Assembly: GCF_003449035.1 (NCBI RefSeq)
Contig: NZ_QRGB01000001.1
Coordinates: forward strand, 2,790,001 to 2,854,000
DNA: 64,000 nucleotides
Direction of reading: 5' to 3'
Source: Pedobacter indicus
GTDB taxonomy: Bacteria; Bacteroidota; Bacteroidia; Sphingobacteriales; Sphingobacteriaceae
The position numbers were made by a program, and so were the translations under genes. This document shows, in pieces, positions 980-37,407 of this stretch. How positions within the stretch are numbered: position 1 is the stretch's first letter; each line of letters starts with the position of its first letter. Under the pieces are notes generated by a model. It was given only the letters and a program-made list of their open reading frames with translations. It did no database searches and was not told the DNA's origin.

Positions 980-1397
980 AATTCGATAGGTTTAAATTAT
1001 AGTTTAATGTCCTGACATTTCTTAATTCAGGATTGGCATTTTTGGGTAAAAAACTGGCTCAAAGCATTAAATAGTTGTATTCCGTTGCTATAAATATATA
1101 GATTTTAATTTGCGATAGCAAGAAACACTGTATTTAGAGGAGATAGAGGTATGTGAAATGGGTTTAATTGTTCAATTTTTAGACAATGTAGAGTTTGGTG
1201 ATAAAAAACTGAACGCTGAAAAATAAGGACGTCAAACCTAGAGCTTGTAAAAACTTTGGAGTAACGCTCCCGACTTGAACCGAAAAATTCCACTATGATA
1301 TGCATCGCAATATGTCCGGTAATAACTTTATCGGGCTAATTATTCATCTCAAAAGAAATAGGTATGCCTAAGCTTAACATGATTCAGTGCATTTTTT

Positions 1398-1450
1398 GCA
1401 TTTCATCCTGTCAGATCACTGTTTCATCTCGATAAAAACGCATTTCATCC
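1398..1450. promoter_or_regulatory. Three direct repeats phased at 21 bp
   Basis: TTTCATC occurs at 1401, 1422 and 1443, exactly 21 bp apart. The first and third copies share the longer GCATTTCATCC (1398-1408 and 1440-1450). Direct repeats two helical turns apart are typical of response-regulator sites such as those of LytTR proteins. No gene starts nearby: the next minus-strand gene starts at 979 and the next plus-strand gene at 1949. The rest of 980-1576 holds only a terminator-like hairpin at 1523 and a poorly supported 66-codon frame. Confidence 0.4.
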
Positions 1451-1522
1451 AAAAAACTGAATTTCGGCACGGTGAATTTTTACCTCTACATAAACAATTA
1501 TTTTGTTAATACGCTTGTATCA

Positions 1523-1550
1523 GAACATCCGCCGGGATGTTCAACTTTTT
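1523..1550 (+). terminator. Orphan intrinsic terminator-like hairpin
   Basis: GAACATCC (1523-1530) and GGATGTTC (1535-1542) form a perfect 8-bp inverted repeat around a GCCG tetraloop, followed by AAC and five T's on the plus strand. This is a standard intrinsic terminator shape. No plus-strand gene ends upstream of it, so it may end an unseen small RNA or a lost gene. On the minus strand there is no T-run after the hairpin. Confidence 0.5.
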
Positions 1551-1576
1551 AGTTAGTTTACGAATCATGGAAAGAC

Positions 1577-1840
1577 TCAGTTTTCTTTTGTTGGTACAAC
1601 TAAAAGCTCCTTCCCGCTGGCGGTAATATCAAGCCATGAATCTTCCCATATGGGAGATAGTTGCCGTTCTTTAGGTTTTTTCTTGTCGATATTCCGAAAA
1701 TGCCAGAGCTTAGCCGACTCTATTGTAGCGGTAAGTTGCCCTTCTGGTTTCTTGGCGAGATAATCAACTTCGGTTCGGCAGCCAGATGTCAGTAGTGTGC
1801 TAAATAAGATCGACAATATGAGAAAATTAGTGTTTTTCAT
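1577..1840 (-). CDS. Short lipoprotein, possibly the remnant of a longer one
   Basis: I chose the ATG at 1840 rather than 1861 because it puts a normal lipoprotein signal at the N-terminus (MKNTNFLILSILFSTLLTSGC). That leaves 87 residues with Cys21 as the lipidation site. The mature part ends in ASGKELLVVPTKEN, which reads like the start of a domain that then stops, so this may be the N-terminal fragment of a larger envelope lipoprotein. No domain is recognised. It is transcribed divergently from the esterase gene at 1949. Confidence 0.5.
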   Translation of the reverse strand: MKNTNFLILSILFSTLLTSGCRTEVDYLAKKPEGQLTATIESAKLWHFRNIDKKKPKERQLSPIWEDSWLDITASGKELLVVPTKEN

Positions 1841-1948
1841 AGGTTTGTTATTAAGTGACAATTGGTTACCGTAAATATAATGAATTAAAAAAACTTACTA
1901 CTTTTATATAAATTTAAATAACAAATACTGACCAATAAAAACCAAACC

Positions 1949-3619
1949 ATGAAATTCTTGAAAATAGTTGCTGGAATAATTTTGGCGGTTGGCATAGCCA
2001 TTGGTGCATTTTTCTTATGGCATAAGGTGCAGATGGTGTCAGCTAAATCTGATATTCAGGATGCCTTTATGAAGTATGACCTTGATAATAGTAGCACTTC
2101 GTCACATAAGGATTTATCGTTCCTTAATCCGCTACTTGAGGACAAAGATATCATTGCGTTCGGGGAAGCTACACACGGAACAAAGGAGTTTCACATTGCC
2201 TTTACTCAGTTAGCAAAACACTTAATAGTGGAAGGAAAGGTTAATACACTCGTGTTTGCAGAAAGAAACTTTGCTGACTCATGGAAGGTGAATGAATTTG
2301 TTCTGAGCCTGGGAGATTCCATTTCAGTCGAGCGAGTCTTCCCGTACTCTAGCAAGGAAGAGAAGGAATTAATTAATTGGATTAGGGCTTTTAACAAAGG
2401 AAAAGATTATCACGAACAAGTCTGGGTTGCCGGTGCAGATATGTATCATCCAAAATTCGCCGCTATCAATGCATTGCATTTATTAGGCGATGGTTATGAC
2501 GATCTATCCATAGAGACCCAACATTCGCTCAACAGTTGGGCTAATTCTCCCGTAACTCTCGATTTTTTTATATCCGAAAATGAAAGCGAAACCACGAGGC
2601 AAGAGTTTCAGGCGACCTACGAGCTGTTTTCAGAACGTGTTAAGGCAGAATACTGGCGAACGAGATGGTTTACACAAAGTATAAAAATGCTAAACAAGGT
2701 CACCAGGCACATACGAACGGATCTACAAGACGGTGTAAGAGACTCTGTTATATTCGATCATATAGTGTGGTTGCGCAATATACGGGAAAATTCAAAACTG
2801 CTGATTTTCGCACACAATGCTCACATTGAGAAATATCCAAACAATACGCTTAGCGAAAATGATGCGAGATTGGGATGGTTGATTCAGGAGAAATTTCCAG
2901 AGAACTATTTCACCATTGGATCCGAAGTAAAAGAAGGAAACTACCGTGCTGGTCATGTTCAGAGTTATCATATCCCCCAAAGCTTTATGAAAATTGGCTC
3001 TATCGTCGCTAACGCGGTGGACGCCGACGCCGGATATATAAACCTCCATCATTCGGACGAAGTCCGGGATTTCTTCAACAAAGATTGGTATATGACCTAT
3101 GGTGTTCTGGATACGGGCCGGCCGACATATCCGGTCAGCAAGGAGTTTTCAAATGCTTTTGACGTGCTATTCTGGGTGAAAAACTCTACTCCGCTGTCGG
3201 TATCACCCACAGACGTCTACAACATCGTAGCACCATTTAGCAAAGAAAAGAATCCGGAGATGTTCTCTGACAGCGTAGTAGTTCAAGTGAAAACCGATTT
3301 CAGTTTATTCCCAGTTGACAGTAGAATGTATGACTATCCAGATCTTATATTACTTTCCTTTTCTCATAAGAAACTTGTAGGGCATAGTACGAAGAAAATT
3401 AAGGCAACTGGCTCGCATAGCCTGACCCATCAAAATATGAGAGCAGAGGTTGACAGTCTGGTCGTTTACTTAGGCGGAGATAAATCGCAGTCGTTTACGC
3501 TGGGAGAACTATCAGTTAATAATCATCCGATAGATAAGAAGCACATTCTGTACGGGGGTCCAAACTATGAAAGTGTCGAAAAGACAAACACACTTCTACA
3601 TTTAGTAATAAAAGATTAA
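1949..3619 (+). CDS. Erythromycin esterase family protein, membrane-anchored
   Basis: A 556-residue protein with one hydrophobic segment at about residues 4-24, so it is probably tethered to the membrane and faces the periplasm. Residues 60-400 carry the erythromycin-esterase-family pattern: FGEATHG at 71-77 (Glu73, His76), AERNF near 104-108, and a later AHNAHIEK. In EreA/EreB the equivalent Glu and His residues hydrolyse the macrolide lactone. Most family members in environmental bacteria are uncharacterised hydrolases, so resistance should not be assumed. The C-terminal ~150 residues are an extra region not recognised. It is a single gene, read divergently from the lipoprotein at 1840. Confidence 0.85.
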   Translation: MKFLKIVAGIILAVGIAIGAFFLWHKVQMVSAKSDIQDAFMKYDLDNSSTSSHKDLSFLNPLLEDKDIIAFGEATHGTKEFHIAFTQLAKHLIVEGKVNTLVFAERNFADSWKVNEFVLSLGDSISVERVFPYSSKEEKELINWIRAFNKGKDYHEQVWVAGADMYHPKFAAINALHLLGDGYDDLSIETQHSLNSWANSPVTLDFFISENESETTRQEFQATYELFSERVKAEYWRTRWFTQSIKMLNKVTRHIRTDLQDGVRDSVIFDHIVWLRNIRENSKLLIFAHNAHIEKYPNNTLSENDARLGWLIQEKFPENYFTIGSEVKEGNYRAGHVQSYHIPQSFMKIGSIVANAVDADAGYINLHHSDEVRDFFNKDWYMTYGVLDTGRPTYPVSKEFSNAFDVLFWVKNSTPLSVSPTDVYNIVAPFSKEKNPEMFSDSVVVQVKTDFSLFPVDSRMYDYPDLILLSFSHKKLVGHSTKKIKATGSHSLTHQNMRAEVDSLVVYLGGDKSQSFTLGELSVNNHPIDKKHILYGGPNYESVEKTNTLLHLVIKD

Positions 3620-3628
3620 TAAACCAGT

Positions 3629-3742
3629 TCATACTGACGTATAAGTAGGAAATGTAAAACTCCTATAATGTTCTTTTTCATATTTCTCAACCAGCATTGA
3701 AAGAATTTCCAACTCATCAGATTCTTCCGATTTTATTGGTCT
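3629..3742 (-). pseudogene. HigA-like antitoxin remnant
   Basis: A 37-codon frame without its own start reads RPIKSEE, then SDELEILSMLVEKYEKEHY, and ends at a TGA. HigA antitoxins start with a PIKTEEEYE segment followed by a GDELE-L--LVEAYE-EHYPI segment. Here these two blocks are joined directly, so an internal deletion removed the stretch between them, and the C-terminal HTH is gone. It lies just downstream of the higB-like remnant in the normal higB-higA order and overlaps its last codons. Confidence 0.6.
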
Positions 3743-4060
3743 TAACAGAACTCACTGTTTTTACGTTTATTTTAACATACTCTATATGTGTTCCAAACCA
3801 GACCACAAATACGATTTTTAATCTATGTTCAATATCAACAATCAGCCGATAGGTAGAGCTCAGGGATTCCGTTTTGAAGTAACAATACAAATTCGGTATC
3901 GCCGGCACGGCTGTCCCTGTCCTTAAATTCACCCGGACTCTTGGATGGCCGGGCGGAGAGCAGTATTTTATGACGGTACCGCAGAATGTGTAACAGCTGG
4001 ATAGAATAGATTTTTACAAATTTTCGGATCAATTCAACTATTTCCTTTTATCTACACAAA
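3717..4060 (-). pseudogene. HigB-like (RelE-superfamily mRNA interferase) toxin remnant, frameshifted
   Basis: The C-terminal part (about 3857-3717) reads TYRLIVDIEHRLKIVFVVW followed by FGTHIEYVKIN, which is the signature end of HigB toxins (NYRLI...V-F-GTH-EYDKIN). The N-terminal part lies in another frame (about 4032-3873, containing SPGEFKDRDSRAG and EFVLLLQNG), matching the position of the HigB middle region. At least one frameshift near 3860-3872 separates the halves, and no single frame encodes a full toxin. Together with the HigA remnant this is a dead type II toxin-antitoxin module filling the 560-bp gap between two intact genes. Confidence 0.62.
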
Positions 4061-4181
4061 TTTTTCGTATCAATCAGGCTAAATATATAAATTTTCCATA
4101 TTAGTATTAACAATGCGTCGACAAAAGTTAAGAAATGCTAGCTCTTGATTAACTTGCCTTATAGGGCAGAACTCGTGTTCG

Positions 4182-5930
4182 CTACAATCCCAATGCCTTA
4201 AACGTAAAACCTCCTTTTACAGCCTTCACCTTAATGATATTTTCACCCTGCTTCAAGTCTGCAATAGATACCGGGATGTGTGTCCAGTCAGTTTCGGTAG
4301 TCGTTTGGGGAACTTGAATAAGCTCTTCGACCGCAACATCATTAATAGAAATTCGAATCGTTGAGCCGCCCTTCGGATCGGCAACGTGAAGTAATAAGCG
4401 GTTGATATCGTCTGATACAACATCCACCGTATACTGCAACCATTCCCCATCTTCGATATGGAAAACATGATACCCAGCCGTATCCTCTTTAATATCGACA
4501 CCGTCATTGCGATAAGCCCATCCTCTATTGCCCTGAGTATCCATACCCGGTGTAAAGTGGTAGCTCGCTGTATCGGTATCAAAATAGGCAAATCCTTGTT
4601 TCCCCAGATCAAAATCGACCGCCTGAATGACATCGCCCTTACCGTATTTTTTATTTTTAAACGGACGGGTGTCGTCTGACTGAACCTGCCTGAACATGGC
4701 ATCCACGACATCGTGACGGAGGACGTTATTCTCCAATCGCAAATTAGCAAGCCAAGACCGAAGTGTTTTCATTGCTTCTTCTTTCGAAGGCTTCGAACCC
4801 TTTCCAGACCAATAATCCAATAACCGTTTATAGCCCTCCGGCTCGGGAATCTCATAAGGCTGATTGATGCCCATCTTTTTATTCTGCCACCAAGCCCAAC
4901 CAATACCATTTTCCTCACACAAAGCAATCGCCTCGGTAAACCAGGTATTTGAGTTCTCTCCAGACTCGCCAAGCCAAAGCGGAATATTGTATTGATCACG
5001 TAAATCCAGAAAATGCTGAATAGAAGCCTGAGTATTTGGATTTCCGTACTTGTGAAAGCTGAGCACCAGATTATCATCCCAGTCAGGAACAATACCTCGG
5101 TAATTATTCGCAAAACCATTACCCTCTAAAAAGATGATATGATTGGTATCAACTTCACGTATGGCTTTGGTTACATCCACCAGGAATTTCTTCAACGGCT
5201 CATTTTTGGTCTCATGAACTCCTAGCCTATCTTCCGGATCTTCAAAACCCCAATTCGTTTCATTCAGCACATCATACCCGCCAATCCATTCTTCCTCTGC
5301 ATAACGCTCGGCCAGCTTCTTCCATAAGGCAATCGTTTTTTTTCGATTCGCTTCACTTTCCCAAAACGACGGCTTCTCCGGATTTCGATCAGAAATATTC
5401 AGATCATGACCCTGCCCCCCCGGTGCAGCATGCAAATCCAGAATCAAATACATTTCATTGGCTTTGCACCAGGCCAGCAGACTATCCGTCATCGCAAACC
5501 CTCGCTCCAACCAAGTCTGCTCTCCGGCTACCGGCTCATCTTCCACTGACAATGTGTAGAGATTATAATGCATGGGTAAGCGGATGGAATTAAAACCCAT
5601 TGCTGCCATGGAGTCGATATCCGCTTTCTGCGTATGTACCCTCAGCCACTCGTCGTAAAACTTGTCCGTTTCTTCAGCACCGACAAGGTCCTGAATGTGC
5701 TCACGGATGCGGTATTGCTGACCAATAAAACCAAGTCTGAACATATAACCTTCCTGCAACATCCAACCTCCAAGTCCCATCCCCCTTAACAGGATGGTAT
5801 CGCCTGCACCATTAACAATATGATGTCCTTGGGTTTTTAGCAAATGCTTACCAGTTGCCAGCTCCTTTGATTGCTGACAACTGATAAACAAGCTTGCGAT
5901 GGCAACAAGCAAGAAAATAGTTTTATTCAT
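4182..5930 (-). CDS. GH5 family glucanase lipoprotein with C-terminal CBM6-like module
   Basis: A 582-residue lipoprotein (lipobox Cys18, LFISC). Residues ~35-370 form a GH5-type TIM barrel: LRGMGLGGW near 48, the acid/base Glu224 in VLNETNW, HKYG near 293-296 and the nucleophile Glu322 in LGESGENS. Residues ~440-582 resemble a CBM6-like beta-sandwich (GEWLQYTVDV, then FTFKALGL at the end). GH5 enzymes hydrolyse beta-glycosidic bonds with retention. The GH16 neighbour and the shared operon suggest beta-1,3/1,6- or mixed-linkage glucan, but the subfamily cannot be read by eye. It is the last gene of the Sus-type operon, 2 bp after the GH16 gene, and probably sits on the cell surface. Confidence 0.88.
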   Translation of the reverse strand: MNKTIFLLVAIASLFISCQQSKELATGKHLLKTQGHHIVNGAGDTILLRGMGLGGWMLQEGYMFRLGFIGQQYRIREHIQDLVGAEETDKFYDEWLRVHTQKADIDSMAAMGFNSIRLPMHYNLYTLSVEDEPVAGEQTWLERGFAMTDSLLAWCKANEMYLILDLHAAPGGQGHDLNISDRNPEKPSFWESEANRKKTIALWKKLAERYAEEEWIGGYDVLNETNWGFEDPEDRLGVHETKNEPLKKFLVDVTKAIREVDTNHIIFLEGNGFANNYRGIVPDWDDNLVLSFHKYGNPNTQASIQHFLDLRDQYNIPLWLGESGENSNTWFTEAIALCEENGIGWAWWQNKKMGINQPYEIPEPEGYKRLLDYWSGKGSKPSKEEAMKTLRSWLANLRLENNVLRHDVVDAMFRQVQSDDTRPFKNKKYGKGDVIQAVDFDLGKQGFAYFDTDTASYHFTPGMDTQGNRGWAYRNDGVDIKEDTAGYHVFHIEDGEWLQYTVDVVSDDINRLLLHVADPKGGSTIRISINDVAVEELIQVPQTTTETDWTHIPVSIADLKQGENIIKVKAVKGGFTFKALGL

Positions 5931-5932
5931 TC

Positions 5933-6793
5933 CTATTCCTGCAAGTCGTAAACACGAACATAATCGACTTCCATCTTCGCTGGGAATGCCTCCTCATCTA
6001 TTCCCTGCTGGCCGCCCCAATCGCCGCCCACGGCAAGATTCAGCAACCAGTGAAATTTCTTGTCAAAAGGCCATACCCCAAAACCCTTCCCTTCATTGTC
6101 AAAGTGGAACATCTCATTATCATCCACAAAACCCTTAATATATGCAGGAGTCCAATCTACCCGATAGGTATGAAACTCCGTTGTTGCATTCTGTATTTTC
6201 TTGGTCGCCGTTTTCTGCGTTCCTATACTATGGTTATAAGCTTGGGTATGCATGCTGATGTGAACTACATCCTGATCATAGCCTACATGTTCCAGGATAT
6301 CAATCTCCCCCGAAGCCGGCCAGTCGCCATAAGCCCAGTCGGTCGGCAACATCCAGGCCGCTCCCCAGGTTCCTTTCCCCGGCGGAACCTTGGCGCGCAC
6401 CTCAAACCTGCCGTACAGGAAATCTCCTTTGCCTTTGCTGACCAGTCGCGCAGAGGTATACTCAAGTCCTTCCATATCTTCACGCAAAGCCGTGATGGTC
6501 AACACCCCATCCCCCACATTCACATTGTCCGGATCCGCTTCCGTGTAATATTGGAGCTCATTGTTACCCCAACCATTATTCTGGGAACCTACATCATAGC
6601 CCCACTTTTCCGGATCGGGCAGCCCTTCATAATCGAATTCATCTGCCCAGGAAGGTGTCGCTTTAAAGCTATACTCTTTCGGCTTAATAGGTTCTGGTTC
6701 AGGAATATTCGGCTTCGGGTTCTCGTTTTCAGAACAGGCAATAGACAATAATATAATCGGAATAAGCTTAATCATTGCAATTTGATTTTTCAT
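5933..6793 (-). CDS. GH16 family beta-glucanase (laminarinase-like) lipoprotein
   Basis: The start at 6793 is preferred over upstream ATGs at 6811 and 6850, because it gives a clean lipoprotein signal with Cys20 (LLSIAC); this leaves 286 residues. A proline-rich linker (PNIPEPEPIKPKE) leads to the catalytic jelly roll. The motif SGEIDILEHV at 161-170 carries the E-x-D-x-x-E residues Glu163, Asp165 and Glu168 of the laminarinase-type GH16. WAYGDWPASGEID and the final MEVDYVRVYDLQE are also typical. The enzyme endo-cleaves beta-1,3 or beta-1,3-1,4 glucan. It lies between the PKD lipoprotein gene and the GH5 gene in one operon. Confidence 0.92.
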   Translation of the reverse strand: MKNQIAMIKLIPIILLSIACSENENPKPNIPEPEPIKPKEYSFKATPSWADEFDYEGLPDPEKWGYDVGSQNNGWGNNELQYYTEADPDNVNVGDGVLTITALREDMEGLEYTSARLVSKGKGDFLYGRFEVRAKVPPGKGTWGAAWMLPTDWAYGDWPASGEIDILEHVGYDQDVVHISMHTQAYNHSIGTQKTATKKIQNATTEFHTYRVDWTPAYIKGFVDDNEMFHFDNEGKGFGVWPFDKKFHWLLNLAVGGDWGGQQGIDEEAFPAKMEVDYVRVYDLQE

Positions 6794-6822
6794 TTTATGT
6801 GCATCATTCATTGGTAAAAATA

Positions 6823-7743
6823 TTAATAAGAACGCAAGGTAAATGACCACCAGCCGTCACCACCAATATTAACGCCAATTGTCAGCAGGTCATACCCTTT
6901 TCCTTCTACATTCTTTTCCATGGACAGAATATCATACAAAACATAATCGTTTACCGGACCCGTGGGCGTTTCACCACCGTTATGCGCTTTCTTAACACCA
7001 ATATGTGCCCCTTTGCCCACAAGTCGCAGCTGCCCGAGTTTATTCACTCCCGTTCCTTCAGTTACCACGAAACTAAACGTACCTGAATCCCAAAGTTTTT
7101 GTTCGCCGGTCAAGTTTGTAGCAGGTTCACAGCCGGCGGTTTGGTTCCCCAAATAACCATCTGCAAAGAAATCCCCTTTGTTATCGTAATCGAAAGTTCC
7201 CTCCGCATTAAAAGAGAATGTAAATTCATCGTTAAACTCGCAACTGCGACCTTGAATATCACCAGCACCGCTAGCCCACCATTCACCATTACCCGGACCT
7301 GGTCCTACTTTAAAAGCACCCGCTTCCGGGTTTAGTTTCCACGTTTTTGTGTCGCAACCCGCAATAAAACCCAAAGCTCTATCATCCGAACAAGCCTGTG
7401 GATCGTTTTCACTAATCGAAACCGCTTTAGTCACACTGGACATTCCTCCCTGCGCTACAATACTCAGCTCCACGTCGTAATTGCCAGCAAAGATCAAATT
7501 GGCTTCAACCGTATCACCGCTGAACTTCTGACCGCTGCTCGCGACTGTCCACTGCGCAATTGACGGCGTGCCGGTCGTGTTAATTAAGCGTACTTTACCC
7601 TCACCCAGGTCAACTGCCTCAAAATCCGGTTGGGGAATTGGGTTCAGATGAAGATCCTCGCCCTCAATCTTACATCCCTGCAAGAGCGCAATACCCATCA
7701 GCGCTCCCACAAAGGCATATTTTATTTTATAATTGATTTTCAT
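6823..7743 (-). CDS. Surface lipoprotein with PKD-like domain (SusE/F-position glycan-binding protein)
   Basis: The frame is open from 7941, but the upstream part overlaps susD in another frame. The real start is the ATG at 7743, giving a lipoprotein signal with Cys24 (GIALLQGC) and 306 residues. Residues ~35-115 look like a PKD/immunoglobulin-type fold (WTVASSGQKFSGDTVEANLI). The C-terminal ~180 residues are rich in Trp, Gly and Asp (KTWKLNPEAGAFKVGPGPGN, GEWWASG, DGWWSFTLRSY). This recalls surface lipoproteins that follow SusD and bind glycan. It lies 10 bp after susD, and its position suggests a beta-glucan-binding protein. Confidence 0.75.
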   Translation of the reverse strand: MKINYKIKYAFVGALMGIALLQGCKIEGEDLHLNPIPQPDFEAVDLGEGKVRLINTTGTPSIAQWTVASSGQKFSGDTVEANLIFAGNYDVELSIVAQGGMSSVTKAVSISENDPQACSDDRALGFIAGCDTKTWKLNPEAGAFKVGPGPGNGEWWASGAGDIQGRSCEFNDEFTFSFNAEGTFDYDNKGDFFADGYLGNQTAGCEPATNLTGEQKLWDSGTFSFVVTEGTGVNKLGQLRLVGKGAHIGVKKAHNGGETPTGPVNDYVLYDILSMEKNVEGKGYDLLTIGVNIGGDGWWSFTLRSY

Positions 7744-7753
7744 AACGTTCGTC

Positions 7754-9274
7754 TTATTTTGTACCACCATATTCTTTGTTCTGTTCCAATTGCGTATTAT
7801 CCAACTCCAACAAAGGAATCGGCAATACTTCATGCTTACCTGCCACAAAACCACGATCACCCAGGGCAGCCGCTGCATCGCCCCAACGCACAAGATCAAA
7901 CCAGCGATGACCTTCGCCCGCCAATTCAATACGGCGCTCACGTTTTATATTATCTAGCGTCGCAGCTACAGCACCCAATCCAACTCGTGCACGAACAGCA
8001 TTCAACAAAGCAGCAGCACGAGCCGTATTTCCACCTCCTCTAACAATGGCTTCTGCTTCTAACAAATAAGTGTCCGCCAAACGAATATCATACATGTTTT
8101 GAGGGAAATTCAGCTCAAACGACCCAGCACCTGTCCACCGATCCGATTCCCGTCCGGCAAACTTCTCAAGAAAATAACCCGTATCCATATAACCCGGCGT
8201 ATAGCTTGCTTTGCCTTCCGCTTCCAATTGGTGCATATCAATAATGGTATATGGATAGCGTGGATCGCCTTTCATAAGCTCTGCCAAATCCTCAGTAATT
8301 GGCAAGAAACTCCATCCCGACACATAATCCGGCGCACCCGGACCGGCAGAATAGCCACGCGGGCCAACCATGATATTCAGCACATTTCCTTCTGTACAGT
8401 CGATACAGCCCCAATCACCGACAGATGTATTGGTGAATGATAATTCTAAAATCGATTCGCTGTTAAACTTGTTATCTACAGCGAATAAATCGCTAAAATC
8501 ATCTAGCAAGCGGTAACCGTATTGACTGGTTCCTCCTGGCTCACCGTTCACATCAGCCAGTTGTGCAGCCGCCTCCGAAAATTTCTCTTGTTGTAAATAT
8601 ACCTTTCCTAACAGAGCCTTAGCCGTACCTTCTGATACTCTTCCAGCCTCCGTGCCCGCCGCTACTTTAGTTGGTAAATTTGCTAAAGAAGCCGTTAAGT
8701 CGCTTTCAATAAAGGCATAGATTTCTTGCGGACTTGCCTGAACAACCTCATAAAGCTCATTACCTTGTAACGGATGATCGATTAAAGGGATATTCCGAAA
8801 ATACCGAATCAGGTCGAAATAAAAATATGCACGCAAGAACCTTGCTTCTGCCTCAAAACGTGCTTTCTCGTTTTCATCCATTGAGATATCAGGCAACTTG
8901 GAAAGCAGGATATTCGCCCGGTTAATTCCCATAAAGTTCCTTCTCCACAAATCCTCTTGCGGACCAACCGCTGCGTCCAGATCATAGCTGGACCAAGCCT
9001 GGATATTCGGTATATCCGATGAACCTCCTCCACCGGCATAATGATCATCAGAAGCCGCTGAAGTCGCCAATACCTTGGTAATGTACGAAGGACTCTGGTA
9101 GCCCAGGACATCGTAAACGGCAACCAGACCGTTGTAAGCTTCCTGTCGGTTACGGTAATAATTATCCTCCAGATCGGTACCTTTTGGTTTAAGCTCTAAG
9201 AAACTGTCGCTGCATGCCTGTAGTCCGAACAGAACCAAACACGCAATTATTGATGTATATATATACTTTTTCAT
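7754..9274 (-). CDS. SusD/RagB family outer-membrane nutrient-binding lipoprotein
   Basis: A 506-residue lipoprotein (Cys21, FGLQAC) directly after susC. SusD hallmarks are present: the N-terminal DSFLELKPKG, the TPR-like helical region RANILLSKLPDISMDENE with AEARFLRAYFYFDLIRYF, and the C-terminal LLNAVRARVG, RRIELAGEGHRWFDLVRWG and KHEVLPIP-LELDNT. SusD acts as the hinged lid on the SusC transporter and captures the oligosaccharide. Genes before and after are 11 and 10 bp away, so this is one operon. The sugar cannot be read from the protein; the GH16 and GH5 neighbours point to beta-glucan. Confidence 0.96.
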   Translation of the reverse strand: MKKYIYTSIIACLVLFGLQACSDSFLELKPKGTDLEDNYYRNRQEAYNGLVAVYDVLGYQSPSYITKVLATSAASDDHYAGGGGSSDIPNIQAWSSYDLDAAVGPQEDLWRRNFMGINRANILLSKLPDISMDENEKARFEAEARFLRAYFYFDLIRYFRNIPLIDHPLQGNELYEVVQASPQEIYAFIESDLTASLANLPTKVAAGTEAGRVSEGTAKALLGKVYLQQEKFSEAAAQLADVNGEPGGTSQYGYRLLDDFSDLFAVDNKFNSESILELSFTNTSVGDWGCIDCTEGNVLNIMVGPRGYSAGPGAPDYVSGWSFLPITEDLAELMKGDPRYPYTIIDMHQLEAEGKASYTPGYMDTGYFLEKFAGRESDRWTGAGSFELNFPQNMYDIRLADTYLLEAEAIVRGGGNTARAAALLNAVRARVGLGAVAATLDNIKRERRIELAGEGHRWFDLVRWGDAAAALGDRGFVAGKHEVLPIPLLELDNTQLEQNKEYGGTK

Positions 9275-33310: not shown

Positions 33311-34513
33311 ATGAAAATAACTTCTTTTGAGCCTTTTTGGTTGGTCAAAAATGGCCTTATCCAATCCTACCCTTCACTTAAGGAAGACTTGAAGGCCGAG
33401 GTGTTAATTGTTGGCGGAGGAATAACCGGAAGTTTGATTGCTCACCAATGTATTGCAGATGGCTACAATACGGTATTAATTGATAAACGGGAGATTGCCC
33501 ATGGCAGTACTTCGGCGACAACGTCTATGCTTCAATATGAGATCGACGTTCCCCTCTATAAATTAATCGATCTGATCGGTGAAAATAATGCCGTTAAAAG
33601 TTATAAAGCATGTTATAACTCCATTGACCGCCTAGAGAAAATTGTTCGCGAAATTGATTCTACTTGCGGATTTAAAAAGAAAGAGTCGCTCTATTTTGCA
33701 GCTTCTAAAAAGGATAGCAAATGGCTATACGAAGAATTTGAAGCGAGAAAGAAATACGGGCTGGAGGTTAGCTGGCTAACAGATGCTGATATTCGTGATC
33801 GATACCGCATTCAGAAAACATACGGTGGAATTCTATCTAAACAGGCAGCAAGTATCGATGCTTTCCAATTCACCCATGACATCTTGAAGTACAATGCAGA
33901 TAAGGGTCTTCGCATTTTTGATAAAACGGATCTTACTGCAATTCGCTATGCGGACAACCGTGTTTACGCTGAAGTAGAATCAAAACAAGTAATCGAAGCC
34001 CAAAAAATCATTTATTGTACCGGTTATGAAACAACGAATCTTATTGAGGAAAATTTCGTTGATCTGTTTAACACCTATGCAATCGTGGGGGAACAGAATG
34101 AAGACGACCAGTCAGATTTAAATGAAACTTTGTTTTGGAATACGGCATCGCCCTATATTTATATGAGAACGACTGATGACAACAGGCTATTGATCGGTGG
34201 TGAAGATGAAAAATTTGGGAAAGTAACCAACGGAAGGCTGATAGAAAAGAAATCTGAAAAACTCAAAAAATATATAAACAAACACCTACCCCATTATGAT
34301 TTTACAATAGATTTTTCATGGGCTGGGAGATTCGGAGAAACCAAAGATGGAAATCCTTACATTGGTGAACATAAGGATTTCCCAAATAGCATTTTTGTGT
34401 TAGGTTTTGGGGGTAATGGCATTACATTTTCAGTAATAGGAATGGATATTGTTTCCAAATTATTGAAGAACCAAACACATGAACTGGTCAATATTTATCG
34501 ATTTGGGCGCTAG
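33311..34513 (+). CDS. FAD-dependent oxidoreductase of the DAO (D-amino-acid/glycine oxidase) family
   Basis: A 400-residue cytoplasmic flavoprotein. AEVLIVGGGITGSLIAHQCI near residue 29-48 is the FAD-binding Rossmann GxGxxG motif, followed by the acidic end of strand 2 in LIDKREIAHGSTSATTSML. The C-terminal FAD-contacting region WAGRFGETKDGNPYIG and FGGNGITFSVIG is typical of DAO-fold oxidases such as DadA, ThiO and PuuB. The substrate is unknown. It converges on the TPP-controlled operon, overlapping the last gene by four bases. This may be chance, although ThiO (glycine oxidase) of thiazole synthesis belongs to the same fold. Confidence 0.85.
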   Translation: MKITSFEPFWLVKNGLIQSYPSLKEDLKAEVLIVGGGITGSLIAHQCIADGYNTVLIDKREIAHGSTSATTSMLQYEIDVPLYKLIDLIGENNAVKSYKACYNSIDRLEKIVREIDSTCGFKKKESLYFAASKKDSKWLYEEFEARKKYGLEVSWLTDADIRDRYRIQKTYGGILSKQAASIDAFQFTHDILKYNADKGLRIFDKTDLTAIRYADNRVYAEVESKQVIEAQKIIYCTGYETTNLIEENFVDLFNTYAIVGEQNEDDQSDLNETLFWNTASPYIYMRTTDDNRLLIGGEDEKFGKVTNGRLIEKKSEKLKKYINKHLPHYDFTIDFSWAGRFGETKDGNPYIGEHKDFPNSIFVLGFGGNGITFSVIGMDIVSKLLKNQTHELVNIYRFGR

Positions 34514-34776
34514 TCAATCAGTTTGAAATCTTGAACATCAGGGATGTCCGAAAGGTATTTCCAACTTTTTAGATGCGGTTCTTCTAATTGAAATTCACGA
34601 TATTCATCTGGGTTCATAATAGGAACTCCTTTGATGATCGGATAATAACGCTTACAATAATTACAGGTCAGCATTCCTTCGTGAATATTTTCTTCTAAAT
34701 CTTGTGTAATAATTTTAAGTGTTAAGTCTGCCTTGTCAAAAGGACAACAAAGTTTATCGATTGTTGATAGTCTCAT
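34510..34776 (-). CDS. Trm112-like small zinc-binding protein
   Basis: An 88-residue protein with LCCPFDKADLTL near residue 8 and LTCNYCKRYYPIIKGVPIMN near 36-55. The paired cysteines and the YPI-GVP-M motif are those of the Trm112/YcaR zinc-binding fold. Trm112 proteins in eukaryotes and archaea bind and activate SAM methyltransferases, and this operon begins with such a methyltransferase, so a partner role is plausible. It lies one base after the ThiE-like gene and is the last gene of the TPP-controlled unit. Its 3' end overlaps the convergent oxidoreductase gene. Confidence 0.75.
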   Translation of the reverse strand: MRLSTIDKLCCPFDKADLTLKIITQDLEENIHEGMLTCNYCKRYYPIIKGVPIMNPDEYREFQLEEPHLKSWKYLSDIPDVQDFKLID

Positions 34777-34777
34777 C

Positions 34778-35425
34778 TTAATTCTTATTTAATTGTTCAA
34801 TATATTGTAAAACAGCTTTTTCTGGGTCATTTGAACCCATAATACCCGATATAAGTGCAACGCCTTGGTAGTCGACACCCTCAAACGCATCCATGTTATC
34901 CGGACGGATACCTCCGGCTAGGAAAATAGGCAGGTTGGTTATTGATCTCGCTTTATGCAAAGACTCTAGGGATACGAGCTCACAACTGGTACTCGTTGTG
35001 GAAGGGAACATGGAGCAGAAAGAAAGGTAGTCTATCCGCTTGTCATCTGCCCAATGGATAATCTCCATATCATTATTACAGGTGATCCCATAAATAGGCT
35101 TATTCGACAAACTAGCTTCTAGTACCCTTTGAATATCATCGAAGTTAGCTGGTATCTCATCAAAATGCACACCGTCTAAGGGAAAGCTTCTTAATAAGCT
35201 CCAATCATTATTGATCAGCAAAGGGACATCGTGTTTTGAGCATAGTTCGATTAATTTGATGATAATGGTTTCTTTCTCTGCATCTTCTTGCCAATTATCC
35301 CAGATTTGGATGGCTGAAATGCGGGTTTTCATTGCTTTTTCAAGTCGTTCAAACAGGAGATCCCGCTCCATCGAAGGGTCTATTACCAGATAAACGCCTT
35401 CACGAATATTTCTTTTTTTTCTCAT
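34778..35425 (-). CDS. ThiE-like TIM-barrel protein (thiamine phosphate synthase family, divergent)
   Basis: The frame extends to 35563, but the start is the ATG at 35425, overlapping the upstream stop (ATGA); the extension would overlap the AIR-synthase-like gene. The 215-residue protein keeps the ThiE outline: PLLINNDWSLLRSFPLDGVH, YGITCNNDME, YLSFCSMFPSTTSTSC, FLAGGIRPDN, and GVALISGIMGSNDPEKAV. But the substrate-binding segment that reads LR-K in true ThiE enzymes is IQIWDNW here, so the basic diphosphate-contacting residues appear changed. It may act on a thiamine-related but different substrate. Control by a TPP riboswitch supports a link to thiamine metabolism. Confidence 0.75.
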   Translation of the reverse strand: MRKKRNIREGVYLVIDPSMERDLLFERLEKAMKTRISAIQIWDNWQEDAEKETIIIKLIELCSKHDVPLLINNDWSLLRSFPLDGVHFDEIPANFDDIQRVLEASLSNKPIYGITCNNDMEIIHWADDKRIDYLSFCSMFPSTTSTSCELVSLESLHKARSITNLPIFLAGGIRPDNMDAFEGVDYQGVALISGIMGSNDPEKAVLQYIEQLNKN

Positions 35426-36477
35426 GTCCATCCCTTCTTTTTTGCTGTAAAAAATGCGGACCAATAAGGATCGGTCTCGAAATAGGGTATATTTTTCTTT
35501 TCGCCGTCTTCTATAAGTTTTATTCCATCTTCTTTTTCTGTTAGTTCTCCTACGACGGCACATTCGATCTCTGCTTCCTTCAGTCTCGCGATCACTCGTT
35601 CTTCTGCGCCATTTTCAATCGCTAACACCATCGAACCCGCGCCAATAACATAGCGTGGATCAATAGAAAAGAGCTGGCAAATTTCAGCTTGGGCGCGACC
35701 GACTGGCAATAAATCGTTTTGAATGAGCACTCCGCAATCACACGCAGTCGCCATCTCATAAATAGCGCCCAATACACCTCCTTCGGTTACATCATGCATC
35801 GCAACAACATCCGGATAACGCTCTTCTTTTCCTACCGCCGCAACAGCATCATGGATGCTGGAAGTCTGATAAAAAAGCTCGCAGCCTTGGCGATAGACTT
35901 CCTCCCCTACTTTGTTTCGAACCGTATCGGGAAAGCTCTTCGCTAAAATAGCAGTTGAGGAGATAGCGCATTGCTTGGTGACCAAAATAAGATTCCCTGG
36001 TCTGGCTTTATTGGAGGTTAAGACATGTTTTTTCTCTACGATGCTGATCATTGTACCGCCACCGGCAATGGTTGAATTTTGCCCTTCGATAAACCCGGTA
36101 TGTCCGCCGACAATGGCAACACCCATCTCACTGCAAAAACGGCTGATATGATTCCAATACACTTTAAAGTCGGAACCCGAAAAACCTGCTGGCAGATTTA
36201 AAACAAATTGTGCATACATGGGAAGGTAACCTGTTGTGGCTATGTCATTCGCCATCAGGCAAACCGAAAGCCATGCAGACTCCTCAAGCCCTAAAGAGGG
36301 GATCAATGACAGCGGATCACTCGCACTTACCATCGCTAAGTTGTTCTTCAAATCGACCACCGCTACATCAACTCCAAATGCAGGACCACATGATACTTCG
36401 GGTCGAGGGTAGCCACAGCTGGAGAGGATCGCATCTTCGAAGAAATCTTTCTGTATTTTTCCGAGTTCTTTGGTCAT
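35422..36477 (-). CDS. AIR synthase-related (PurM/HypE/ThiL superfamily) protein
   Basis: A 351-residue cytoplasmic protein with the PurM-type ATP-binding fold: FGVDVAVVDLKN (the GDDAAV-like region), ASDPLSL, LMANDIATTGYLPMY (the NDI-A-G-xP motif), IVGGHTGFIEGQNSTIAGGG and MHDVTEGGVLGAIYEMA. The last motif is typical of HypE-like AIRS proteins. It lacks the C-terminal Cys needed for HypE carbamoyl transfer, ending in KKKGWT, and the first Asp of the ThiL GDDAAV motif is replaced. It is probably an ATP-dependent kinase- or amidine-forming-type enzyme with an unknown substrate. Start and stop overlap both neighbours (TAATG, ATGA). Confidence 0.82.
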   Translation of the reverse strand: MTKELGKIQKDFFEDAILSSCGYPRPEVSCGPAFGVDVAVVDLKNNLAMVSASDPLSLIPSLGLEESAWLSVCLMANDIATTGYLPMYAQFVLNLPAGFSGSDFKVYWNHISRFCSEMGVAIVGGHTGFIEGQNSTIAGGGTMISIVEKKHVLTSNKARPGNLILVTKQCAISSTAILAKSFPDTVRNKVGEEVYRQGCELFYQTSSIHDAVAAVGKEERYPDVVAMHDVTEGGVLGAIYEMATACDCGVLIQNDLLPVGRAQAEICQLFSIDPRYVIGAGSMVLAIENGAEERVIARLKEAEIECAVVGELTEKEDGIKLIEDGEKKNIPYFETDPYWSAFFTAKKKGWT

Positions 36478-37199
36478 TATGGAACATCATTAAATTTAAC
36501 GTAAAGACCAAAGAAATCACCGTAAGGAATGCTCCATTGTTGAACAGGGAACCATTTCGGCAGACCTGTGCAAGACCATTCTATTGAATATTCGCGTCCT
36601 GCAAGAGCTTCATCTATAATTGCAATTAGTTTTTGAGGCGTATAGAATGTTGCTGTCACATAAAACGGGTTTTTCCCGAATGCCTGCTGGACTCTTCGTC
36701 GAAATACTTTCGGTGAATTGCGGTTCATCATGCCCATGGCAATACCGTATTTGGCAACGCGGGCAGATTCACGTATGACTTTTACCGGGTCTTTATAATA
36801 TTCAAAAGTGGTGATGAATGCCAGTGAATCAAAAGTATGGTCTTTAAATGGCATATGGTGAGAGTCGGCCATCACCAAGTCCCCCTGAAACAGATGAATC
36901 GCCTGAGAGAGCATCAACGGGGAAATATCCCCACCCGTAGCCTCAATGCCGATCTCTTTCCACCATCTGGTAAACCGAGTTGTTCCGCAACCAAACTCCA
37001 ATAGGGTTTTTACACGTTTATCTTTCGATACCAACTGCTCCATGACCTTTTTCTGCCATATTTCAGCGCGTTTGTACCTGCCTTCATACCACTGCTCGTA
37101 AGTATCGGTGTGTTCACGATTAAAGAACCACTCGGTTCTGCCCTGCCAGTTGCGATCGTTTTTAGGGATAAGAATTTGATCTGTTTTTTGGATTTCCAT
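36477..37199 (-). CDS. Class I SAM-dependent methyltransferase, first gene of the TPP-regulated operon
   Basis: A 240-residue Rossmann-fold methyltransferase. Motif I is LLEFGCGTTRFTRWW near residues 66-80, the acidic residue ending strand 2 is in ATGGDISPLML, motif II/III region is LVMADSHHMPFKDHTFDSLA and the post-motif strand is AKYGIAMGMMNRNSP. It belongs to the methyltransferase-11 type (small molecule or cofactor substrates). The start codon follows the riboswitch terminator by 12 bp, and its stop overlaps the next start by one base. The Trm112-like protein encoded at the end of the operon may be its activator. The acceptor is unknown. Confidence 0.87.
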   Translation of the reverse strand: MEIQKTDQILIPKNDRNWQGRTEWFFNREHTDTYEQWYEGRYKRAEIWQKKVMEQLVSKDKRVKTLLEFGCGTTRFTRWWKEIGIEATGGDISPLMLSQAIHLFQGDLVMADSHHMPFKDHTFDSLAFITTFEYYKDPVKVIRESARVAKYGIAMGMMNRNSPKVFRRRVQQAFGKNPFYVTATFYTPQKLIAIIDEALAGREYSIEWSCTGLPKWFPVQQWSIPYGDFFGLYVKFNDVP

Positions 37200-37210
37200 T
37201 TTAAATTTTG

Positions 37211-37257
37211 TTAAAAATTAAAAAGCTCCGATTCTTTCAATACCAAAAGAATGGAGC
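37211..37257 (-). terminator. Intrinsic terminator of the TPP riboswitch (expression platform)
   Basis: On the minus strand GCTCCATTCTTT pairs with AAAGAATCGGAGC (one bulged base) around an 8-base loop, followed by TTTTTAATTTTT. It lies between the aptamer and the start codon at 37199. Terminators placed here are switched by TPP binding, so high TPP should stop transcription before the four genes. Confidence 0.88.
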
Positions 37258-37279
37258 CATAAAATGGAAATTCTTACGT

Positions 37280-37362
37280 GCTGCATCCCTACGTTGGCAT
37301 TGTCCAAATCAGGTATCGGGTATTTTCTCAGCTCACTCTAAGGTGGGCACCCCGTGCATTTA
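37280..37362 (-). promoter_or_regulatory. TPP riboswitch (THI element)
   Basis: On the minus strand the conserved THI-box segments appear in order: ACGGGGTGCCC, then GCTGAGAAAATACCCG, ACCTGATTTGGACAATGCC and CGTAGGGATGCAG. These are the invariant pieces of the TPP aptamer: the pyrimidine-sensing CUGAGA loop and the diphosphate-binding ACCUGA/GGAUAAUGCC arm. P1 can form between the ATGCA ends. It is followed by a strong terminator and a four-gene operon. It controls expression negatively in response to thiamine diphosphate. Confidence 0.95.
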
Positions 37363-37407
37363 TACCGCAAGGTACGAATAATTATACGATAAAAGGCTAT
37401 TTCATAA

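Follow-up and report, generated by a model that had tools for sequence, protein, structure and literature searches.

A TPP-riboswitch-controlled four-gene operon of Sphingobacteriaceae as a candidate alternative route of thiamine supply

The supply of vitamin B1 shapes which microbes can live alone, and operons for thiamine synthesis and uptake under the control of thiamine diphosphate (TPP) riboswitches are well known. Among described systems, the closest to the one considered here are the thiamine salvage operons pnuT-tnr3 and OMthi of Bacteroides thetaiotaomicron, both under TPP riboswitches (PMC5613172, in the part available to us), and the bacimethrin cluster of Clostridium botulinum, in which a methyltransferase gene stands together with genes for thymidylate synthase, ThiD2, thiamin pyridinylase and a transporter (PMC12345177, likewise in part). 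Here we examine a four-gene operon in a 64,000-nucleotide stretch of the Pedobacter indicus genome (contig NZ_QRGB01000001.1, positions 2,790,001 to 2,854,000; hereafter the window) that encodes a methyltransferase (MT), an AIRS protein, a ThiE-like barrel and a Trm112-like protein. The operon, with its TPP riboswitch and terminator-like hairpin, is strictly conserved, and most genomes that carry it lack the standard thiamine pathway. On this basis we see an even chance that this self-contained, TPP-repressed operon constitutes an alternative thiamine supply route ending in thiamine monophosphate (TMP).

All four genes lie on the minus strand. The first encodes MT, a class I S-adenosylmethionine (SAM)-dependent methyltransferase of 240 residues (36477-37199; PF08241, Methyltransf_11, 61.8 bits), and the second a PurM/HypE/SelD/ThiL-superfamily, presumably ATP-dependent enzyme of 351 residues (AIRS, 35422-36477; PF02769, AIRS_C, 65.5 bits, and PF00586, AIRS, 42.7 bits). 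They are followed by a ThiE/TenI-like triosephosphate isomerase (TIM) barrel of 215 residues without the presumed diphosphate site (34778-35425; PF02581, TMP-TENI, 105.9 bits) and a Trm112-like zinc-binding protein of 88 residues, a likely MT partner (34510-34776; PF03966, Trm112p, 31.1 bits). The first three genes overlap in turn by 1 and 4 bases, and a single base separates the third from the fourth, as the original prediction had it in describing genes that overlap or lie within one base of each other. Each of the four proteins exceeds its Pfam cut-offs and falls below every NCBIfam cut-off in its table.

Upstream of MT, a TPP riboswitch aptamer (THI element) occupies 37269-37364 on the minus strand. 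It matches the full RF00059 model without truncation at 60.4 bits (gathering threshold 54.3; E 2.3e-9) and is the sole Rfam match above gathering in the whole window. Next comes an intrinsic-terminator-like element (37213-37258, minus strand), in which a hairpin at 37258-37224 with a predicted fold of -16.1 kcal/mol (z -2.48 from 200 shuffles, 5 of which fold as well or better) is followed by UUUUUAAUUUUU, a T-rich tract; both lie between the aptamer and the first start codon. The full THI-box aptamer and terminator that had been predicted before the four genes are thus both present. The predicted span, 34510-37362, holds for the genes and falls two bases short at its upper end, since the aptamer begins at 37364. 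We infer that aptamer, hairpin and T-rich tract have the anatomy of a transcriptional off-switch. By a simple script, a hairpin with a T-run was detected upstream of the start in 30 of 41 loci and missed in 11, in at least two of which the script had placed the end of the aptamer wrongly.

These 41 distinct loci, the window included, were located through their MT or AIRS protein, so that the counts describe loci having one of these two. Three (L032, L034 and L035) were added from a protein scan, L032 lying outside the set of 40 carrier genomes used below, and two records (L031 and L033) were left out because they appear to be the same loci as L097 (G519:C7) and L109 (G590:C2). With an eight-row MT alignment as query, 36 of the 301 family genomes, representing 6 of 25 genera, proved to have MT, as did 4 of the 395 class genomes, two of which lie outside the family. 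All four genes occur in the same order in 41/41 loci, and an RF00059 match above gathering stands just upstream in every one of them, that is, in the window and 40 further loci. The thiamine link drawn in the original prediction is therefore strongly supported; the opposite pattern, in which these genes are mostly found without a THI element, does not occur. A chance riboswitch is ruled out by the same count.

Beyond the operon, the flanks share little. Where about 3-5 kb per side were compared (under 1 kb for L002 and L003), the widest recurring flanking family reached 9/41 loci, counting either side and either orientation. A larger conserved cluster is thereby ruled out and, since flanking families do not recur, the four-gene unit looks autonomous. 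Between the window and a genus-mate, the proportion of synonymous differences (pS) is near saturation in all four genes (0.63-0.89), but that of nonsynonymous differences (pN) is low, at 0.08 for MT and 0.21-0.30 for the other three, so that selection maintains all four. A quick tree of the joined proteins requires 11 changes of genus label (minimum 9, shuffled mean 20.1), so that the labels are mostly clustered; rows of genera g4 and g17 are intermixed, and carriers from other families (Runella, g156 and g193) fall among the family's rows under midpoint rooting. This placement fits descent plus losses and some transfer, and proves neither. Carriage on plasmids or viruses is rejected: a plasmid collection contained no MT match at E 1e-20, and of 17 pattern matches in viral contigs none was confirmed. 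One in-frame stop falls inside the MT match in each of two genomes, G397 (TGA; L060/L091) and G557 (TAA; L083/L112); full-length, stop-free MT frames can be read in both, and the stop probably marks the end of the match.

The genomes that carry the operon are poor in recognised thiamine genes. We compared 40 carriers with 29 operon-free genomes, which were hand-picked rather than random (14 from the carriers' genera and 15 from others, excluding G009, G010, G023 and G024, which are less complete). ThiC is present in 2/40 carriers and 11/29 operon-free genomes, in one of which, G020, it is in two pieces with stops. We do not lean on the corresponding p-value (Fisher, 0.001), because relatedness is uncorrected in it and genus g15 lacks ThiC in genomes of either kind. 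Strong ThiG matches (>350 bits) occur in exactly the 13 genomes that have ThiC, two of them carriers; strong ThiD matches (at least 88 bits, one in two pieces) occur in three carriers, and a second TMP-TENI protein above cut-off, besides the operon's own, in eight. Altogether, 31/40 carriers have no ThiC, strong ThiG, strong ThiD or other ThiE-family protein above cut-off. Weaker, partial matches above the Pfam cut-off (PF08543 in 54/69 genomes and PF05690 in 29/69, carriers included) were taken as related kinases and barrels. ThiL is above cut-off in 69/69 genomes and thus in all 40 carriers, and the separate ThiL of the window's genome lies at G000:C1:656250-657242 (315.7 bits).

Thiamine pyrophosphokinase (TPK) requires closer attention. 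The Pfam family PF04263 is matched in only 3/69 genomes, all carriers (G062, G063 and G276). A 190-residue protein (L056 7071-7643; L139-L175) without any Pfam or NCBIfam match is found in 61/69 genomes, and we take it to be a divergent TPK because its matches coincide with the PF04263 hits in those three genomes; PF04263 thus misses the TPK-like protein of this family. In the eight remaining genomes, a 27-row TPK profile found nothing in seven and a stop-ridden match at E 0.376 in the other. Four of the eight are carriers (G000, which is the window's own genome, G001, G004 and G462), in which TPK was not found by Pfam, single-sequence search or profile. Of the four operon-free genomes without TPK, three have ThiC and ThiG, and the small genome G011 has neither. 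Since the four carriers lack TPK but have ThiL, no gene searched other than those of the operon could supply them with TMP (TenA, ThiM, ThiK, ThiN, YjbQ and THI4 were not searched); they may also take up TMP.

Of the four proteins, the ThiE-like barrel gives the clearest sign of an altered chemistry. Its predicted structure (predicted local distance difference test, pLDDT, 94.8) matches Bacillus subtilis ThiE with Z 23.8 and a root-mean-square deviation (rmsd) of 2.5 over 207 residues, and TenI with Z 20.5. With 105.9 bits against a PF02581 cut-off of 27 it belongs to the ThiE/TenI family, and with 100 of 145.1 bits it does not reach the ThiE equivalog TIGR00693. We compared its active-site columns with those of 20 comparators, picked by hand from among the non-operon TMP-TENI matches. 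Seven of them stem from genomes in which ThiC is absent: L182 and six of QYR type (L192-L197), three of the six lying beside a TPK-like gene. All 20 comparators have Arg in the QxR motif, against 0/41 operon proteins, all of which have Trp instead (QxW). The Asp five residues past the invariant His is found in 18/20 and 0/41, with Pro in 36 of the 41, and the Lys of the TxTK loop in 19/20 and 0/41. We take the lost Arg, Asp and Lys to be the diphosphate/magnesium site for hydroxymethylpyrimidine (HMP) diphosphate in ThiE. Gln40, His87, Gly113, Gly171, Gly172, Gly188 and Ala190 are kept, the glycines presumably forming the thiazole-phosphate side of the site; Gln40, His87 and Thr115 are invariant in 41/41. 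Two cysteines are likewise invariant in 41/41: Cys137, at a position where 19/20 comparators have Gly, and Cys148, where none of the 20 shows a Cys in the alignment. The protein is not a normal ThiE, and its presumed diphosphate site is replaced. A normal thiE-thiL pair is ruled out, since cut-offs and active-site columns fail and the genome has a separate ThiL.

The AIRS protein is similarly at home in its superfamily and outside each described member. Its model (pLDDT 94.3) matches HypE best (Z 34.6, rmsd 2.6 over 322), then SelD (29.2) and ThiL (28.4), which are tied, and archaeal AIR synthetase (23.3). No equivalog is reached, be it HypE (TIGR02124, 96.4 of 251.6 bits), ThiL (TIGR01379, 70.5 of 184.15), SelD (TIGR00476, 50.7 of 125) or PurM AIR synthetase (TIGR00878, 21.1 of 236.35). 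In HypE a C-terminal Cys accepts the carbamoyl group; such a Cys is present in 0/41 AIRS proteins, which, with the score below cut-off, rules out HypE maturation. In class relatives, eight distant AIRS loci were examined over 2-4 kb; none has an MT, ThiE-like or Trm112-like gene as a neighbour there, and by eye some of the neighbours resemble hyp genes. Relatives with 29% identity lie on 3/3 Haloarcula plasmids examined, divergent from genes for a thiamine-binding protein and a thiamine ATP-binding cassette (ABC) substrate-binding protein; on the other side of the AIR-synthase-family gene these three plasmids (L132, L137 and L138) have katG. For a relative in Acetoanaerobium, the record carries no annotation at that place.

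This protein is also at the centre of the first alternative, a salvage pathway in which the PurM-fold enzyme is a thiamine or thiazole-alcohol kinase that substitutes for TPK in supplying ThiL, while the other three proteins act on damaged or modified thiamine (ring-opened, oxidised or alkylated). The structure of ThiL that the model matches has TMP and a nucleotide analogue bound (Z 28.4 over 296), and D37, D54, D78, H126 and D229 are kept in 41/41 loci; the thiamine-binding proteins beside the Haloarcula relatives and the four carriers in which TPK was not found also favour a kinase. The enzyme is nevertheless nearer to HypE than to ThiL in both bits and Z, and a kinase alone would be redundant in the 36/40 carriers that have a TPK homologue. 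For this last reason thiamine kinase activity alone probably does not explain the whole operon, and we regard such salvage as unlikely overall, if a credible alternative.

Returning to the supply route that we favour, we can outline how it might operate. When TPP is low, the terminator would not form and the four genes would be made. The route would start not from HMP diphosphate but from a scavenged compound that resembles thiamine or derives from it. The ThiE-like barrel would handle the thiazole-phosphate half, the PurM-fold enzyme would spend ATP on one intermediate, either phosphorylating it or activating a carbonyl or amide oxygen, and MT, assisted by the Trm112-like protein, would transfer a methyl group, a step for which we know of no counterpart in standard thiamine synthesis. 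The product, TMP, would then be converted to TPP by the ordinary cellular ThiL. A route that makes HMP alone or hydroxyethylthiazole (HET) alone is unlikely, because 31/40 carriers lack both a strong ThiD and another ThiE-family protein above cut-off. A more specific version is decidedly improbable at present. It holds that the operon encodes a diphosphate-independent thiamin phosphate synthase system, in which MT-Trm112 methylates a scavenged pyrimidine conjugate (a thioether or amine) into a cationic leaving group, the barrel joins the pyrimidine to thiazole phosphate with Trp42 replacing the diphosphate-binding Arg, and the PurM-fold enzyme provides the phosphate or another activating step. 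Methylation would here create the leaving group, a role that diphosphate has in ThiE; if this is true, the C-N bond of thiamine would be formed in an entirely new manner.

Several observations weigh against a supply route. Condensation by the known ThiE mechanism is not supported, because the presumed HMP-diphosphate residues of ThiE are lost. The presence of ThiL is not specific, being shared by all 69 genomes whether or not they carry the operon. Two carriers, G458 and G582, combine the operon with ThiC, ThiG, a ThiD match and an additional ThiE-family protein; because these two keep the pathway and 36/40 carriers have a TPK homologue, the operon is usually not the sole route. Operon-free relatives in the carriers' genera often lack ThiC too (5/5 in g15 and 3/5 in g14), so that pathway loss is independent of the operon. 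Finally, no thiamine gene adjoins the AIRS relatives on those plasmids of Halobacterium, Haloferax and Acaryochloris that were examined.

A different connection to thiamine would be sparing, in which the operon's product stands in for a TPP-dependent reaction at times of TPP shortage, much as B12 riboswitches control B12-independent isozymes. The off-switch anatomy of the riboswitch with its terminator-like hairpin would suit this, as would the loss of the presumed diphosphate site from the barrel. However, the barrel keeps its thiazole-phosphate-side glycines together with Gln40, His87 and Thr115 in 41/41 loci, and none of the four proteins has, in its Pfam or NCBIfam table, a family recognised as a TPP-independent isozyme, so we think thiamine sparing quite unlikely. 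Production of a bacimethrin-like thiamine antivitamin or a secreted thiamine derivative is very improbable: the methyltransferase of the C. botulinum cluster offers a parallel, but the other genes of that cluster, as far as the available text names them (PMC12345177), are neither in the operon nor among five scanned window neighbours, neighbours in the other loci having been clustered only and not named.

MT and its presumed partner bear on one more possibility. MT is the most conserved member of the set, with 76-89% identity between the window's protein and the seven other alignment rows, and the GCG motif of its SAM site is found in 41/41. The Trm112-like protein belongs to its family (PF03966, 31.1 bits against a gathering threshold of 22) and falls below the narrower NCBIfam model NF038101 (59.1 of 77 bits); 40/41 have the signature [C/D]PX[C/D]X19-36CX2C, which the part of a review available to us gives for the archaeal Trm112 subfamily (PMC5372719). 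According to the same text, the methyltransferases with which Trm112 is known to pair act on RNA and translation factors, and bacterial Trm112 proteins, some of them fused to methyltransferase domains, are of unknown function (PMC5372719). Those partners could suggest that MT-Trm112 modifies translation components and that the thiamine link is regulatory only, but the unknown role that the review gives for the bacterial proteins and the company of ThiE-like and PurM-fold genes in 41/41 loci leave this a slim prospect.

Further TPP riboswitch matches in these genomes point to uptake. In seven carriers searched with RF00059, eight matches were found beyond the operon's own, five of them below gathering, and a long open reading frame resembling a TonB receptor adjoins the element in seven of the eight regions (protein families were run on two). 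The second TPP match of the window's genome (41.0 bits, below gathering) precedes such a gene, as it does in relatives, an arrangement resembling OMthi of Bacteroides (PMC5613172). These receptor-like genes suggest that the carriers probably import a thiamine compound. In two Mucilaginibacter regions (L055 and L056, about 1000-8200), the TPP match is weak (39.2 and 37.5 bits, respectively) and precedes a row of genes for a TonB-receptor-like protein, a PnuC/PnuT-like transporter, an acyl-CoA-dehydrogenase-like protein and a type I phosphodiesterase; the row ends in a TMP-TENI protein in L055 and in the divergent TPK in L056. A third TPP match in G001 (L052 1752-1847, 64.7 bits) has no recognised thiamine gene directly downstream on the same strand. 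Beside the operon itself, a flavin adenine dinucleotide (FAD)-dependent DAO-family oxidoreductase gene (33311-34513, plus strand) is convergent, with a 4-base overlap at the operon's end, and in other loci it is not seen next to the operon.

We found no description of this gene set in the openly licensed literature, judging by titles and abstract openings among the matches listed and with supplements excluded, and the available parts of PMC5613172, PMC12345177, PMC12074574 and PMC3766115 do not suggest it. This is weak evidence of novelty, because only openly licensed papers were covered, supplements were excluded and matches were partly listed. Bacteroidaceae are the only group of Bacteroidetes proper in the genome table of Sun et al. 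2013, as far as the accessible text goes (PMC3766115). Family cut-offs, active-site columns and this literature search agree with the earlier view that the operon is not a known thiamine gene set, and like the original prediction we infer a route of salvage, synthesis or modification that includes methylation. ThiC is absent from 25/25 g15 genomes checked, apparently including two of Mucilaginibacter, while a Mucilaginibacter genome paper, in the portion available, describes thiamine biosynthesis as common to its strains (PMC12074574). An alternative route could account for this conflict, and so could loose annotation.

The consequences could extend to how vitamin dependence is read from genomes. 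Lacking ThiC, 38/40 carriers are likely to count as thiamine auxotrophs under standard gene lists, and an operon present in 36 of the 301 sampled family genomes may be a missing thiamine route. In that case predictions of auxotrophy in these Bacteroidota would have to be revised, and a function could be given to four protein families, including a bacterial Trm112-like protein.

Comparison with known systems helps to place the operon. Its barrel has the family (PF02581), fold and thiazole-phosphate-side glycines of ThiE/TenI, whereas it has QxW, no presumed diphosphate Asp or Lys, and invariant Cys137 and Cys148. AIRS shares the fold of ThiL, HypE, SelD and PurM; it differs in falling below the equivalog cut-offs and in having no C-terminal Cys of the HypE kind, and its genome has a separate ThiL. 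As in Trm112-methyltransferase holoenzymes, MT and the Trm112-like protein are encoded together and the zinc signature is nearly universal (40/41). With the bacimethrin clusters, in the part of their description available, the operon has in common a thiamine-related setting and a methyltransferase, the remaining genes being different. Compared with pnuT-tnr3 and OMthi, as far as their available description goes, it has no transporter and no pyrophosphokinase and draws its enzymes from other families, but it shares with them both control by a TPP riboswitch and the phylum in which it is found.

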